Origin: Candidatus Aminicenantota bacterium
GTDB lineage: Bacteria; Acidobacteriota; Aminicenantia; Aminicenantales; Aminicenantaceae
Assembly: GCA_030614685.1 (NCBI GenBank)
Contig: JAUWTO010000008.1
Location: 1-37,669, forward strand
Length of the DNA stretch: 37,669 nucleotides
Reading direction: 5' to 3'
The number at the start of each line of letters is the position of its first letter. The stretch's first letter is position 1. Position numbers and translations under genes: made by a program. Of the stretch, positions 3,220 to 16,388 are shown piece by piece. The notes beneath the pieces are model-generated. The model did not search any database, had not been told where the DNA came from, and saw nothing but the letters and a program-made list of their open reading frames with translations.

Positions 3220-3249
3220 TTGTATCCTCGCTGACAGGTATGCTATAAT
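3220..3249 (+). promoter_or_regulatory. Candidate sigma70-type promoter for dsrC-like gene
   Basis: TTGTAT (3220-3225), 18-nt spacer, TATAAT (3244-3249), 29 nt upstream of the dsrC ATG. Confidence 0.5.
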
Positions 3250-3278: not shown

Positions 3279-3599
3279 ATGCCTGAGATAGAAGCTAAAG
3301 GACAAACAATCCAGCTCAATGAAGAGGGTTTCATGCAGAATCCGGAGGAATGGAGCGAGGAGGCTGCCCTTGCCCTGGCCAAAGCTGAAGAGGATTTGGA
3401 CTCTCTGACCGCCGAACATTGGTCTGTGATCCATTACATCCGGGAATACTATGAAGAGAAGAAACTTGCACCCATGGTGCGCAAAGTGTGTAAGGGCTCG
3501 GGGCTCTCTTTGACCAGGATATTCGAGCTCTTTCCCTCCGGCCCGGCCAAAGGTGCGTGCAAGCTGGCAGGCCTGCCCAAACCCGACGGCTGCGTCTAA
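3279..3599 (+). CDS. dsrC: DsrC/TusE-family sulfur-relay protein with both C-terminal cysteines
   Basis: 106 aa; N-terminal EEGFMQNPEEWSEE and C-terminal FPSGPAKGACKLAGLPKPDGCV match the DsrC signature, including GACK and the penultimate Cys. Confidence 0.9.
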   Translation: MPEIEAKGQTIQLNEEGFMQNPEEWSEEAALALAKAEEDLDSLTAEHWSVIHYIREYYEEKKLAPMVRKVCKGSGLSLTRIFELFPSGPAKGACKLAGLPKPDGCV

Positions 3600-3610
3600 C
3601 AGACTGCAAG

Positions 3611-4249
3611 ATGGAAACCGCTCTGGTCGTGGGAGTCATCGGTGCCGCCCTTTTATGCGGTTCTGCGCTGGTTTTACTGGTTTTAAACACCCTGTCATTC
3701 GGAAAAGGAGACACCTTCGCGGTTTCCCGAGGCGATACAGGTAAAGGGATTCTTTATGCCTTCGGACAGGGCATGATGCCGTGGGAGAAGGAGAGTGCCC
3801 GCCGACATCTCATAACCTACACGGCCGGATTCCTGTACCATTTTGGGATCTTTGCGGCATTATTCTGGCTTATTCTCCAGATCGCATCCCTGAATGCAGG
3901 AGGGTTCGTGATAAGCGCTCTCCAAGTGTTGACGGGTGTCGGGCTGCTTGCGGGATCGGGGCTGTTCCTGAAGCGCTGCTTTCGGCCCATGATGCGGAGC
4001 ATAAGCTGTCCTGATGACTACATCGCCAATCTGCTGGTCGATATTTTTATGGGAGCGGCGCTCGTCAGTATGTTTTTTCACGGGCTCAAAGCGCCTTTGT
4101 ACGCTGTGGCCATGCTGCTTTTCCTCTATATCCCTCTAGGCAAGATCCGGCATTGCATTTTCTTTTTTTACAGCCGGATTCTTTTCGGACGTTTTTTTGG
4201 CAAGCGTGGTGTTTTCCCGCGCTCGAATGATCCCTATCGCCAGGCGTGA
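3611..4249 (+). CDS. DsrM/TmcC/NarI-like membrane cytochrome b subunit
   Basis: Multiple hydrophobic helices with spaced His residues (RRHLITY, YHFGIF, FFHGLKAP, IRHCIFFF); motif GQGMMPWEKESARRH typical of DsrM/TmcC-like proteins; adjacent DsrK-like gene. Confidence 0.8.
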   Translation: METALVVGVIGAALLCGSALVLLVLNTLSFGKGDTFAVSRGDTGKGILYAFGQGMMPWEKESARRHLITYTAGFLYHFGIFAALFWLILQIASLNAGGFVISALQVLTGVGLLAGSGLFLKRCFRPMMRSISCPDDYIANLLVDIFMGAALVSMFFHGLKAPLYAVAMLLFLYIPLGKIRHCIFFFYSRILFGRFFGKRGVFPRSNDPYRQA

Positions 4250-4251
4250 CC

Positions 4252-5592
4252 ATGCCGCAATCTGAAAAACCAGAGATGACCTTAGAAGACAAGGTGAAGT
4301 CCCTTACCTCAAGGGACCGGGAGCGCATCCTGGAGGTTTTCAAGGCCAGCCTCACACATGAATATGCGGCCTTTCTTCAGACCTGCGCCCACTGCGGGTT
4401 GTGTGCCGATTCCTGTCATTACTACCTTACCCAAAAGGACCCCAAGTCGATCCCCGCCTTTAAACTCCATCAGATCACGAAGGTATACAAAAAGAACTTT
4501 GACCTCATAGGCCGCAAGCTGCCTACCCTGGTGGGTGCTGAGGAACTCAGCAATGAGCTGATCGAGGAATGGGTGGACACTCTGTTCGGCCGCTGCAGCC
4601 TATGCGGCCGCTGCGGGATCAACTGCACCATGGGGATCAACATCCCTTACCTTATCCGGACGGCTCGAGGAGCCTTGGCGGCGGTAGGGCTCGTTCCTCC
4701 TGGGCTTCAGTCCACGGTCGACACAGCGGTGGAAAAGGGAAACAACATGGGGATTTCCCAGGAGGACTGGTTGGAAACGGTCGAGTGGCTGGAGGAGGAA
4801 CTGCAGAAGGATGTGGGCGATCCGGAAGCCAAGCTGCCCCTGGATAAATCCGGTGCACGCTGTATGTATACGATCAATCCGCGGGAAGCGATGTTCTTCC
4901 CCTTGTCTATAACAGCGGCTGGGAAGATCTTTTACGCCGCAGGTGAAGACTGGACCTTTTCCTCAAAGAATTACGATGTAACCAACTACGGCCTATACAA
5001 CGGGGATGACGAGGCGGCCGGGATCATGTCCGGCCGGTTGGTACAGGCACTGGAGGAGTTGAACTGCCGGGAATTGATTCTGGCCGAATGCGGGCATGGA
5101 TTCAATTCAAATCGTTGGGAAGCCCCGGAATGGTTGAGCCGGCGCTACGGATTCCCCGTAAACAGTATCCTCCAGCTAATAGCGGATTATATCCGGACAG
5201 GCCGGATCAAGCTTGATCCGGCGCGCAATCAAAAGACCGTAACCCTCCATGATCCATGCAACCTGGTGCGACTGGGAGGAATCGTAGAAGAGCAGCGATT
5301 CATTCTCCGTCACAGTGTCAAAAACCTGGTCGAAATGTATCCCAATCGTGAAAAAAACTACTGTTGTGGAGGAGGCGGAGGACAGCTGGCCATGACGCGC
5401 TTCGCAGAAAGGCGCCTTGAAGTGGGCCGGATCAAAGCCGATCAGATCAAGGCCACCGGGGCCGAGGTGGTGGTCACACCCTGCCACAACTGCATTGACC
5501 AACTAATGGAGCTTAACAAACACTACAAGCTGAATGTCGAGATCAAGACAGTGAGCGAGATCGTAGCCAACGCTCTTGTCATTCAGGATTGA
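4252..5592 (+). CDS. DsrK/HdrD/TmcB-like iron-sulfur protein with CCG domains
   Basis: Two CX2CX2CX3C clusters (CAHCGLCADSC, CSLCGRCGINC) and CCG motifs (HDPCNLVR, NYCCGGGGG, TPCHNC). Confidence 0.87.
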   Translation: MPQSEKPEMTLEDKVKSLTSRDRERILEVFKASLTHEYAAFLQTCAHCGLCADSCHYYLTQKDPKSIPAFKLHQITKVYKKNFDLIGRKLPTLVGAEELSNELIEEWVDTLFGRCSLCGRCGINCTMGINIPYLIRTARGALAAVGLVPPGLQSTVDTAVEKGNNMGISQEDWLETVEWLEEELQKDVGDPEAKLPLDKSGARCMYTINPREAMFFPLSITAAGKIFYAAGEDWTFSSKNYDVTNYGLYNGDDEAAGIMSGRLVQALEELNCRELILAECGHGFNSNRWEAPEWLSRRYGFPVNSILQLIADYIRTGRIKLDPARNQKTVTLHDPCNLVRLGGIVEEQRFILRHSVKNLVEMYPNREKNYCCGGGGGQLAMTRFAERRLEVGRIKADQIKATGAEVVVTPCHNCIDQLMELNKHYKLNVEIKTVSEIVANALVIQD

Positions 5593-5709: not shown

Positions 5710-6768
5710 ATGGCAAAGGTCTATGAGAACATCCTGGAACTGATCGGCCACACGCCCATGGTTAAGCTCAGCCGGATCAAGGGAGACTTGAAGGCGAACA
5801 TCCTGGCGAAACTCGAATTCTATAATCCCACCGGGAGCGTCAAGGATAGGATCGCCCTAAGCATGATCGAGGAAGCGGAAAAGCAGGGGATCCTAAAGAA
5901 AGGAGACTGCATCGTGGAACCCACGAGTGGGAACACGGGTACCAGCTTGGCCCTGGTCTGCGCACTGAAGGGATACCGCATGATCGCGGTCATGCCAGGC
6001 GAGATGAGCCAGGAGCGCAAGGACATGATGACCGCCTTCGGGGCAGAACTGGAACTGGTCCCCAGCCAGGGCGAGGCCGAACCCGGGACCTTTGCTCTCG
6101 AGGATCTGGAGGCGACCCTGGCCCGGGCCGTGGAGCTTGCGGCCCAACCAGGCCACTACATGCCCAATCAGTTTGCCAATCCCAGCAATACCCTCGCGCA
6201 TGAGACCACCACGGCCGAGGAAATCTGGTCTCAGACCGGAGGACGGATTGATGCCTTTGTGGCAGGCGTCGGTACCTCCGGGACGGCCATGGGTGTCAGC
6301 CGGGGGCTGAAGCGGAGGCATCCAAAAATTAAGATCTATGTCATCGAGCCGAAAAATTCGGCGGTAATCTCTGGTGATGAACCTGGTCACCACCGGATCC
6401 AGGGGATAGGGGAGGGCTTCATCCCGGAGCTCTATGACCATTCTTTTAGTGATGGGGTGGTCAAGGTGTCGGATATCGAGGCCAAGGCGACCGCCTGCCG
6501 CCTTGCCCGGGTGGAGGGGATCTTCTGCGGGTATTCATCCGGCGCCAATGTGTTCGCCAGCCTTCAGGTTGCTGAAGAACTTGGCGCAGGTAAGACCATC
6601 GTCACGGTCATTCCGGATACAGGGATGAAATATCTAAGCACGGAACTCTTCCGGCGCAGCCCGGAAATCTGCTCCATCCACTGCTGCACATTAAAGAGCG
6701 ATGAAGCACGGGAGGAGTGTCTGCGTGCGCAGGGAGCTGCACGCTGCTGCGTACTGGAACCGTGCTGA
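5710..6768 (+). CDS. cysK: Cysteine synthase (O-acetylserine sulfhydrylase) with Cys-rich C-terminal tail
   Basis: 352 aa; PLP-Lys motif NPTGSVKDRIA, PTSGNTGTSLA, GVGTSGTAMGVSR, PDTGMKYLSTELF. Confidence 0.95.
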   Translation: MAKVYENILELIGHTPMVKLSRIKGDLKANILAKLEFYNPTGSVKDRIALSMIEEAEKQGILKKGDCIVEPTSGNTGTSLALVCALKGYRMIAVMPGEMSQERKDMMTAFGAELELVPSQGEAEPGTFALEDLEATLARAVELAAQPGHYMPNQFANPSNTLAHETTTAEEIWSQTGGRIDAFVAGVGTSGTAMGVSRGLKRRHPKIKIYVIEPKNSAVISGDEPGHHRIQGIGEGFIPELYDHSFSDGVVKVSDIEAKATACRLARVEGIFCGYSSGANVFASLQVAEELGAGKTIVTVIPDTGMKYLSTELFRRSPEICSIHCCTLKSDEAREECLRAQGAARCCVLEPC

Positions 6769-6769
6769 T

Positions 6770-7939
6770 CTACTGCCTCTTTCTCTGCATCTCAGCGATC
6801 TCGGCCACAGCTTTGATCGCTGTCTGGATGTGGGCTTCGGTGTTGAAGGGGCCGATGCCGAAGCGCACCCCCCCATGGATCTCCGATGTACCCAGTCGCT
6901 CGTGCACCAGGGGCGCGCAGTGCAGCCCCGTGCGGCATGCGATGTTGTAATCCACGTCCAGCAGAGTGCCTGTATTCAGGGCTTCCATCCCGTCCACATT
7001 GAAGAGCAGCACGGCGATGTGATCGGTCAGGTCTTCCTGGCAGTACAGAGTGATTCCTTCGATCGCGGCCAGGCCGTCGCGCAGCATGCGGTTGAGCCTC
7101 GTCTCAAGGCCATGGATGTTATCCAATCCCTTCTGTTCCACCCATTCCAGCCCTGCTTTCAGACCTGCGATCCCCAGGGTGTTGGGAGTGCCGTACTCCA
7201 GACGATAGGGGTATTCATACAGGTGCGTCTTAACCGCGGATCGGACGCCAGTCCCACCTGCGCGGGTGTGCCGGATCTCTATGCCTTCGCGCACATAAAG
7301 GCCGCCGATCCCGGTCGGCCCCAGCAGAGACTTGTGCCCGGTGAAGGCAACGACATCCATGTTCAGGTCTTCCATGTCCACCGGGATTTTTCCTACGGTC
7401 TGGGAGGCATCGACGGCCATGGGAATCCCGTTTTCCCGGCACAACCGCCCGATCTCTTTAACAGGCTGGATGGTCCCGATCACATTGGAGGCGTGGTTCA
7501 CCATGACGAGCCTGGTGTTGGGCTTGAATTTTTTCTTAAAATCGTCAGGGTCCACAAAACCCTTATCATCGAAGGGGATGTGGTCGAGCTCCACCCCGTT
7601 GAATTTCCAGAGATGATACAGAGGCCGGAGTACGGAGTTATGCTCGATGGTGGTGGTGATGGCATGATCCCCCTTTTCCAGCATTCCGAAGGCGATGAGG
7701 TTTAGGGCATCGGTCGAGTTGTAGGAAAAACACAGCCGATCAGGGTCTGTGCCATTGAAAAATTTGGTCAAGGCCTTACGGGTATCCTCGACTACCTCGC
7801 CCGCTTCCATACATATGTCGTAGCCCGATCGGCCCGGGTTGACTCCGAGCTTCCGGTAGAATTCGTCCATATACGTATAGACCTCTTCCGGTTTGGGGTA
7901 GGATGTCGCTCCGCTGTCCAGGTAGATAAATTCGCTCAT
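6770..7939 (-). CDS. Class-V aminotransferase fold cysteine desulfurase family protein
   Basis: MSEFIYLDSGATSYPKPEEVY start; TTTIEHNSVLRPL, VDASQTVGKIPVD, FTGHKSLLGPTGIGGLYV (PLP Lys), RTGLHCAPL. Confidence 0.92.
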   Translation of the reverse strand: MSEFIYLDSGATSYPKPEEVYTYMDEFYRKLGVNPGRSGYDICMEAGEVVEDTRKALTKFFNGTDPDRLCFSYNSTDALNLIAFGMLEKGDHAITTTIEHNSVLRPLYHLWKFNGVELDHIPFDDKGFVDPDDFKKKFKPNTRLVMVNHASNVIGTIQPVKEIGRLCRENGIPMAVDASQTVGKIPVDMEDLNMDVVAFTGHKSLLGPTGIGGLYVREGIEIRHTRAGGTGVRSAVKTHLYEYPYRLEYGTPNTLGIAGLKAGLEWVEQKGLDNIHGLETRLNRMLRDGLAAIEGITLYCQEDLTDHIAVLLFNVDGMEALNTGTLLDVDYNIACRTGLHCAPLVHERLGTSEIHGGVRFGIGPFNTEAHIQTAIKAVAEIAEMQRKRQ

Positions 7940-8041
7940 ATCAGCCTCCGTATGAATAAAAAACCTATATCCAAGGGAATAAATGCCAAGTTTCACATGT
8001 TAAAAAAAAACCGTCTTAAAATCAAACGTTTTCCCTAAAAT

Positions 8042-14204: not shown

Positions 14205-16388
14205 ATGAGACGATCCCTTGGCATAGCTGTTGCACTATTCCTGCTTGTTACGGGGCCGCTCCATGCCCTGGAAAGACCCCGGATCGGATTGGTCCTCGGG
14301 GCGGGCGGTGCTAAGGGGCTGGCTCACATCCCCATCCTGAAGCTGCTTGACGAGCTGGATATCCCCGTAGACTGCATCGTCGGGACCAGCATCGGGGGGA
14401 TCATTGGTGCGCTCTACGCCATGGGCCATACCGGTTCTGAGATCGAAAAAATCACGGAGGGACTGGAGTGGGATATGCTGTTCCGGGACCGCCCCCCTCG
14501 TGCCCAAAGGCCTTACTTCACTAAGAAGGATGATGGGAAATATCAGCTGGACTTGATCTGGGACGACTGGGTTCCATCGCCTCCCCAGGGGCTCATATTC
14601 GGGCAGAACATCTTTCAGATGCTGTCGGTCCTCACGTTTCCCTATGCCACGGTGCGTGATTTTGACCTCCTGCCCGTTCCCTTTCGCTGCGTAGCAGTGG
14701 ACCTGGTGACAGGCACTCAGGTTGTCCTGGAAGAGGGATCCTTGGCCCTGGCCCTTCGTGCCACTATGGCCATCCCGACTGTCTTCAGTCCTGTTACATG
14801 GGGCGGTCAGCTACTGGTTGACGGAGGGCTCCTCAACAGCCTGCCGGTCGATGTGGCCCGGGAGATGGGGGCGGATATCGTCATTGCGGTCGACCTGGCC
14901 ACACCCCTGGGCGGCCCGGAGAGCTTGGATTCGGCGGCCCGCATCCTCTCTCAGAGTATACGCCTGGTCGAGCACGAACACAGGCGGGAAAACGCAGTGG
15001 CTGCAGACATACTGATCCAGCCGGACATGATGGACCTGGGGGCCATGGATTTTTTTTCCCAGCAGAAACGGGAGAAAATATATGAGCAGGGCGAGGCAGC
15101 AGCCCAAGCGGCAAGGGAAGAGCTGTTGAGAATCAAGGAGCGGTATAGCCTGTCCCGGGAGGAGCGATCCAGTCGAGAAGCGAGAAAAGACTTGCTGACC
15201 ATCGGCGAAATAAGCGTGACGGGCAACGAACGGCTTTCTCAGGAATTCATATTGTCCCAGTTAGATATCCTTCCGGGTGAGCAGGTCGATGTCGAAAAAA
15301 TCAACCGCAAAGTCCAGGGCATTTATGCCCTGGGATATTTTGAACATATTCACTATGAGACAAACCAACTGTTCGGGGAAGAGATAGCTCTCGTGCTGAT
15401 TGTAAGGGAGCTGCCGCGCGGCAAGCTCCGTCTCGGAATCCGCTATGACAACCTGCACAAACTGGTGGGGATCGCAGGTTTGGATTTCGCCAACGTATTG
15501 ATTTCAGGACTGCGTATCGAGAATGAACTCCAGGTCTTCGGCCTGACACACATCCGGTCCCGCCTCTACTTCCCATCGCGAACGCTGAATCTGCCCGTCT
15601 ATCCACTGCTGGAGGTTCGGTACCGCAACATCCCTTCCCGGATCTTCGATGGGGAGGGGGAGCGCATCGCCTCTTACAACGACCGGGCTTGGAACCTGGA
15701 CCTGGGGATCGGATTGCTGCCCGCAAAGTGGTTAAACGCTGAGATCACCTTCCGGATGGAGGAGATAAACCTCAGGCCCACCTCTGCGCTCCCGGATCCA
15801 GACCTTTTGCCCAATCTAAAGGACAGCCTGCGTCTGATCGCGGCCGGATTCACTCTCGACACGCTTGACGATGTCCAGCTTCCGAACCAAGGTGTAAAAC
15901 TCGAACTATTCTATGAAGGGAGCTTCAAGGAGCTCTCTTCCGACCTGGCGTATGACAAGCTGGAGGCCTCCTTGGACAGTTATCTTACTTTCGCAGAACG
16001 GCACACGGGCCGCCTTTTCTTGTTTTTAGGCCGGACCTGGGGAGAGATTCCTTTTTATAAATATTTCAACTTGGGACGACCGCAGACTTTTGTTGGCATG
16101 CGCTATGACCAGCTGTTCGGAAGCCAGATGGAGGTCCTCAGGGCGGAATACCGATTTCGATACAACAGCTTTCTCAACTTCAACCTGATGGGCAACGTGG
16201 CCTTCGACTTCGGCCAGGAAGCCAGGCCTGAGCTCGGCAATCCGGTGCTGTGGGGCTGCGGAGCAGCGGCTGTGGTCGATTCTCCGATAGGGACGGTGGA
16301 GATCATCTACAGCCTTGGAAGCCGGAGCCTGTCCCAACCGGGCCAGACACAGAACGTGCTCTATGTGGCCCTGGGAACCCGGTTCTAA
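14205..16388 (+). CDS. Patatin-like phospholipase fused to POTRA and outer-membrane barrel (PlpD / type Vd-like)
   Basis: Signal peptide, GLVLGAGGAKG oxyanion motif, GTSIG nucleophile elbow, DGG motif, then a POTRA-like region and a beta-rich C-terminus ending in F. Confidence 0.88.
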   Translation: MRRSLGIAVALFLLVTGPLHALERPRIGLVLGAGGAKGLAHIPILKLLDELDIPVDCIVGTSIGGIIGALYAMGHTGSEIEKITEGLEWDMLFRDRPPRAQRPYFTKKDDGKYQLDLIWDDWVPSPPQGLIFGQNIFQMLSVLTFPYATVRDFDLLPVPFRCVAVDLVTGTQVVLEEGSLALALRATMAIPTVFSPVTWGGQLLVDGGLLNSLPVDVAREMGADIVIAVDLATPLGGPESLDSAARILSQSIRLVEHEHRRENAVAADILIQPDMMDLGAMDFFSQQKREKIYEQGEAAAQAAREELLRIKERYSLSREERSSREARKDLLTIGEISVTGNERLSQEFILSQLDILPGEQVDVEKINRKVQGIYALGYFEHIHYETNQLFGEEIALVLIVRELPRGKLRLGIRYDNLHKLVGIAGLDFANVLISGLRIENELQVFGLTHIRSRLYFPSRTLNLPVYPLLEVRYRNIPSRIFDGEGERIASYNDRAWNLDLGIGLLPAKWLNAEITFRMEEINLRPTSALPDPDLLPNLKDSLRLIAAGFTLDTLDDVQLPNQGVKLELFYEGSFKELSSDLAYDKLEASLDSYLTFAERHTGRLFLFLGRTWGEIPFYKYFNLGRPQTFVGMRYDQLFGSQMEVLRAEYRFRYNSFLNFNLMGNVAFDFGQEARPELGNPVLWGCGAAAVVDSPIGTVEIIYSLGSRSLSQPGQTQNVLYVALGTRF

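Follow-up and report, generated by a model that had tools for sequence, protein, structure and literature searches.

We describe here a compact redox module in which a dsrC gene is followed by the genes of a membrane subunit (M) and of a CCG-domain iron–sulfur subunit (K), and whose constant partner is a cysteine desulfurase and not the cysteine synthase gene cysK. Tentatively, and with slightly less than even confidence, we read it as a membrane-linked redox module for sulfane sulfur (persulfide or trisulfide), running from the desulfurase to DsrC and on to the K/M pair. As such, the module points to an undescribed way in which sulfur derived from cysteine is put to membrane-linked use.

The three genes and their surroundings

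In the window (the whole stretch of 37,669 nucleotides analysed here), dsrC (3279..3599, 106 aa), the membrane subunit gene (3611..4249, 212 aa) and the CCG subunit gene (4246..5592, 448 aa) all lie on the + strand; the last may start at GTG 4246, with a 4-nt overlap with the membrane gene, or at ATG 4252, leaving a 2-nt gap. A preliminary description of this DNA had already recognized three packed same-strand genes at these places, and our ORFs agree with it; the packing after dsrC is indeed tight, but 11 nt, not 12, separate the stop codon from the following ATG. Downstream come the two genes it had named, both with profile matches above cut-off, that is, cysK (5710..6768, +; TIGR01139, 369.9 bits, cut-off 351), coding for a cysteine synthase whose C-terminal tail is rich in Cys, and the cysteine desulfurase gene (6770..7996, −; TIGR01977, 416.5 bits, cut-off 377), whose start is probably close to 7939, the point from which the family members align. 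Further on lies an amidohydrolase gene (PF07969; 8250..9737, +), for which we propose no role. The cassette is far beyond chance, as the same genes and spacing recur in dozens of genomes.

The promoter proposed for dsrC fared less well: the letters TTGTAT-N18-TATAAT exist upstream of the gene (3220..3249, +), with TG preceding the −10 box, but the −35 box agrees at three of six letters, the site falls below the criteria of our scan, and that scan of the region returned 3 promoter-like sites against a shuffle mean of 3.2, hence no excess; the promoter therefore carries no weight as evidence. Between positions 2885 and 3151, a short ORF runs from the beginning of a response-regulator receiver domain straight into the end of a PhoU domain (PF01895). 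At locus L117 and others, dsrC is preceded by a longer same-strand gene array whose last gene (218 aa) is related to this ORF and, given these longer arrays in relatives, the ORF may be what a deletion has left of a pst-phoU region. Elsewhere in the window, apparent glycoside hydrolase pieces stand in different frames (46-477 and 634-1374, together 46-1374) in a frameshift-like manner, and the gene at 14205-16388 fuses a patatin domain to POTRA and Omp85 barrel domains.

The DsrC protein passes both family profiles (PF04358, 120.1 bits, cut-off 24.9; TIGR03342, 105.5 bits, cut-off 53.5) and its C-terminal arm, GACKLAGLPKPDGCV, which is invariant in 18 family copies, holds the two redox cysteines, Cys94 and Cys105, as had been read from the letters. 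The membrane subunit is less easily named: it has no Pfam match, it matches HmcE (28.8 bits, cut-off 275) and TmcC (24.0 bits, cut-off 240) weakly, no DsrM model is among its profile matches, and a sequence search of the PDB found nothing. Its AlphaFold model (pLDDT 94) matches NarI only in Foldseek (probability 1.00, TM about 0.5), with E-values slightly above 0.001. His77 and His181 are invariant in 67 membrane-subunit sequences and His66 is present in 93% of them, which makes one haem b likely, and a second possible, in what is probably a cytochrome b. The earlier label “DsrM/TmcC-like” is corrected in these respects.

The CCG subunit carries PF02754 (CCG) and Fer4_8 dicluster domains, with 14 conserved cysteines invariant across 55 K sequences (C47, C50, C53, C57; C117, C120, C123, C127; C282; C338, C373, C374, C413 and C416); its model (pLDDT 94) best matches EtfD, followed by the HdrB chains of heterodisulfide reductase. 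As it scores under the curated cut-offs of HmcF (321 bits, cut-off 750), TmcB (297 bits, cut-off 735) and DsrK (NF045796, 245.5 bits, cut-off 400) alike, the pair is placed by these profiles in the HmcEF/TmcCB/DsrMK superfamily, outside every named equivalog and nearest to HmcEF/TmcCB, not to DsrMK proper. What had been called a DsrMK-like pair is, then, a membrane subunit with a CCG iron–sulfur partner, for which the name DsrMK is not the closest. Candidates for second DsrK genes on other CCG-bearing contigs of the genome proved to be HdrB-, FAD-oxidase- and EtfD-like.

Distribution and host genomes

A profile scan with one genome per species returned at least 80 loci. Those listed span Acidobacteriota (including the cultured Geothrix limicola), Aminicenantes, Zixibacteria, Eisenbacteria, Fermentibacteria, Bacteroidota, Planctomycetota, KSB1 and others, and dsrC lies immediately 5' of the pair in 72 of the 80. 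The host is a Candidatus Aminicenantes MAG (Acidobacteriota), and the nearest named locus, likewise from Candidatus Aminicenantes, has a K protein 93% identical; of 396 genomes sampled evenly from the window's phylum, 50 match K with E ≤ 1e-100. Three loci (L110, L146 and L158) are on contigs labelled Clostridiales, Deltaproteobacteria and Bacillota, with K proteins that nest inside Acidobacteriota clades; these are probably mislabelled or mixed MAGs, or else cases of transfer.

A DsrC next to a CCG/NarI-like pair makes up a minimal DsrC-MK set, and the module could accordingly be taken for an ordinary DsrMK, in an organism that reduces sulfite or sulfate and has its dsrAB at another place in the genome. 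The absence of dsrAB from the neighbourhood had been pointed out before; we extended the search to the whole host genome (2.94 Mb, 83% complete), where the sulfite reductase domain PF01077 was not found, and to its family, where it was found in 0 of 38 genomes (21 genera; 13 genomes at least 90% complete), 30 of which have DsrC. The same search was positive in 11 of 14 control genomes. We also looked for DsrAB in 50 genomes of the listed loci; none of the 44 in which dsrC adjoins the pair, from many phyla, has it, and the only sulfite-reductase-type enzyme of Geothrix is of the assimilatory CysI type. True DsrAB turned up in only three of the 50, all Chloroflexota, where the genes clustered with the K homologue include NrfD and ferredoxin-like subunits but not dsrC; these pairs were first accepted as members of the module and then excluded as an Hmc-like cluster without dsrC. 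With PF01077 missing from the family genomes and the DsrK cut-off missed, the canonical DsrMK reading was dropped: within the limits of MAG completeness it is refuted, and we leave it next to no probability. Neither of the two outcomes that the preliminary description had named as speaking against it, dsrAB elsewhere or an ordinary DsrMK, was encountered, and its view of DsrC with a membrane CCG pair outside sulfite reduction is supported at the genome level.

The desulfurase and the possible roles of the module

Among the loci listed, the desulfurase adjoins the module in 60 of 80 (by tblastn, across many phyla), lying downstream on the opposite strand in 37, downstream on the same strand in 20 and upstream on the same strand in 3; in the other 20, the contig is too short (10 loci) or the gene is not there (10 loci). 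Its active-site motif R-x-G-x-[HQ]-C (RTGLHC in the host) is kept in all copies with a complete C-terminus. The idea of a link to cysteine or persulfide metabolism thus gains from the comparison, but through the desulfurase: cysK is an optional, occasional neighbour, found beside the module in 5 of the 80 listed loci, and was rejected as key partner. All six complete CysK copies (that of the window and those of L062, L063, L067, L081 and L095) bear the Cys-rich tail PE[IV]C[ST]IHCC...EC...CCVLEPC, a possible metal, cluster or sulfur site. At L062, L063, L064 and L069/L077, the membrane pair has given way to a distant one (identities of about 42% and 26%), while dsrC is kept, as are cysK and the desulfurase as far as the contig reaches.

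One has to ask whether the desulfurase is simply a neighbour by ancestry, without a working link to dsrC and the pair. Unrelated neighbours, namely the amidohydrolase and NamZ, are likewise conserved within Aminicenantes; the amidohydrolase gene, beside the module in 12 of the 80 listed loci, is conserved in the window's family only. We nevertheless find this explanation very improbable, as the desulfurase alone among the neighbours clustered at the listed loci is retained across phyla, on either side and either strand, with arrangement states (absence included) that change at least 15 times on the K tree. Over the 38 family genomes, DsrC and desulfurase are both present in 28, one is present without the other in 2 + 2 and neither in 6; the corresponding Fisher test (p = 2.5e-4) is inflated, since linked genes drop out together in incomplete MAGs. 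Distances between K proteins and between desulfurases correlate as well (Spearman 0.78, 58 loci), which shared species history alone could explain. The host genome also encodes separate NifS/IscS-type desulfurases, which by their type would serve housekeeping.

DsrC and TusE form one family, in which TusE relays sulfur, and TIGR01977, to which the desulfurase belongs, is a family of unsettled role; both points lend something to a biosynthetic relay in which desulfurase sulfur would go through DsrC to tRNA thiolation, clusters or a cofactor, the pair resetting or tapping the redox state. We judge this unlikely: the module DsrC falls short of the TusE equivalog (PRK11508, 69.7 bits, cut-off 191), TusE has one conserved cysteine against two in most module DsrC, and no tRNA or cofactor gene is kept near the module across phyla at the listed loci.

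The chief rival is that DsrC acts as a plain dithiol/disulfide electron carrier between soluble Hdr-type enzymes, which would reduce its disulfide, and the membrane pair, which would reoxidize it (or the reverse), the desulfurase serving cluster assembly or maturation. There is a precedent in Desulfovibrio vulgaris, where, as cited in PMC10553843, DsrC interacts with FlxABCD-HdrABC when growth is fermentative; the model there makes Flx-Hdr the reductant of DsrC. In the host, HdrB- and HdrC-like genes adjoin one for a 2-oxoacid oxidoreductase subunit, and both arm cysteines (GACK...PDGCV) are retained in 67 of 72 DsrC copies across phyla, among the loci listed. What a dithiol carrier leaves unexplained is that five related DsrC copies (L104, L105, L112, L115 and L120), with Ala at the inner-Cys position (KGAAKIAGLPKPDGCV), still adjoin the membrane/CCG pair; with the terminal Cys only, a persulfide is possible on them and an internal disulfide impossible, and they offer a natural variant for probing the mechanism. 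Nor does it explain a desulfurase following dsrC even where the membrane pair is missing: dsrC and desulfurase stay adjacent at L062 and L063, where the pair is a distant replacement, and at L065, L066 and L067, where there is no pair beside them, an adjacency that speaks for a sulfur relay. We therefore regard the dithiol carrier as somewhat doubtful.

In the sulfane-sulfur module that we infer, the desulfurase would strip sulfur from cysteine as a persulfide and hand it to DsrC, whose loaded arm would dock at the CCG cluster in K; the K/M pair would then move electrons between the DsrC-bound sulfur and a membrane carrier, most likely in the direction that reduces the sulfur to sulfide and thiols, alternatively with the DsrC couple working in reverse. 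Cysteine sulfur would thereby become an internal electron acceptor. The reading builds on what the genomes show: the gene set, the redox residues kept in DsrC and K, the linkage of dsrC-M-K to the desulfurase, and the absence of sulfite reductase. Carried further, this could amount to a widespread respiration of internal cysteine sulfur in many phyla without dissimilatory sulfite reductase, with a two-subunit membrane reductase whose acceptor would be the DsrC-loaded sulfane sulfur of cysteine, with release of sulfide and alanine, and with CysK, where present, recycling the sulfide; we consider this broader proposal doubtful.

As for the carrier, a NarI-like subunit naturally brings quinone to mind, and a connection to the quinone pool had been put forward at the outset. 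Our searches do not support it: MqnA/MqnD of the futalosine pathway (PF02621) were found in 0 of 38 family genomes, and all MenD-like matches in these genomes are below cut-off, that of the host being rejected as MenD in favour of a pyruvate-oxidase/acetolactate-synthase-like thiamine enzyme, though there is a MenA-like prenyltransferase, itself below cut-off, as well as an EtfD-like protein. With neither menaquinone pathway detected in the family, quinone is no more than a candidate partner; it could be scavenged, or produced by an unrecognized route, or the carrier could be something else. Menaquinol is in any case a weak reductant for persulfide, so the reduction may need coupling.

Comparison with known systems

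dsrC is often taken as a marker of dissimilatory sulfur metabolism. DsrC with both its cysteines commonly occurs together with a membrane partner in organisms that have no DsrAB, so finding dsrC with dsrMK-like genes should not by itself imply sulfite reduction. Through the conserved desulfurase, a connection of cysteine sulfur with electron flow at the membrane becomes concrete and testable, both in cultured Geothrix and in anaerobes not yet cultured. The module is also relevant to the functions that DsrC and CCG membrane pairs had earlier than DsrAB or independently of it. In the open-access literature searched (most subscription papers fall outside it), we came across no account of the dsrC-M-K-desulfurase module. 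DsrMK without DsrAB in a few assemblies (PMC10504309) and the use of DsrC outside sulfite reduction are already known.

By profile, the module is nearest to TmcBC/HmcEF, whose NarI-like and CCG/4Fe-4S subunits are thought to exchange electrons with DsrC; it differs from them in scoring under the curated cut-offs, in its adjoining desulfurase, in a host without sulfite reductase and in having no TmcA/TmcD, HmcA/cytochrome c or NrfD-type subunit adjacent, in the window or at the family loci. With DsrMK(JOP) it shares the superfamily, the gene order C-M-K and a CCG subunit handling DsrC, and in the accepted model for sulfate reducers a CCG membrane complex reduces the DsrC trisulfide (Santos 2015 as cited in PMC10229431; PMC10504309); here, however, K is under the DsrK cut-off, none of JOP is adjacent and DsrAB is absent. 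Also similar are the minimal DsrMK of Neukirchen et al. 2023 (PMC10504309), the consulted sections of which report DsrMK without DsrAB in 7 of 74 basal-clade assemblies, and some Chloroflexi DsrM; those sections describe neither linkage to a desulfurase nor such a function, and the K of our module misses the DsrK cut-off. The IscS-TusABCDE relay resembles the module in that desulfurase sulfur ends on a DsrC-family protein, which in our case is outside the TusE equivalog, has two cysteines and comes with a membrane redox pair and no tus genes nearby. Finally, with FlxABCD-HdrABC too, DsrC serves in thiol redox exchange independently of sulfite reduction, but the partner is a soluble bifurcating complex, where the module has a membrane pair and a desulfurase.
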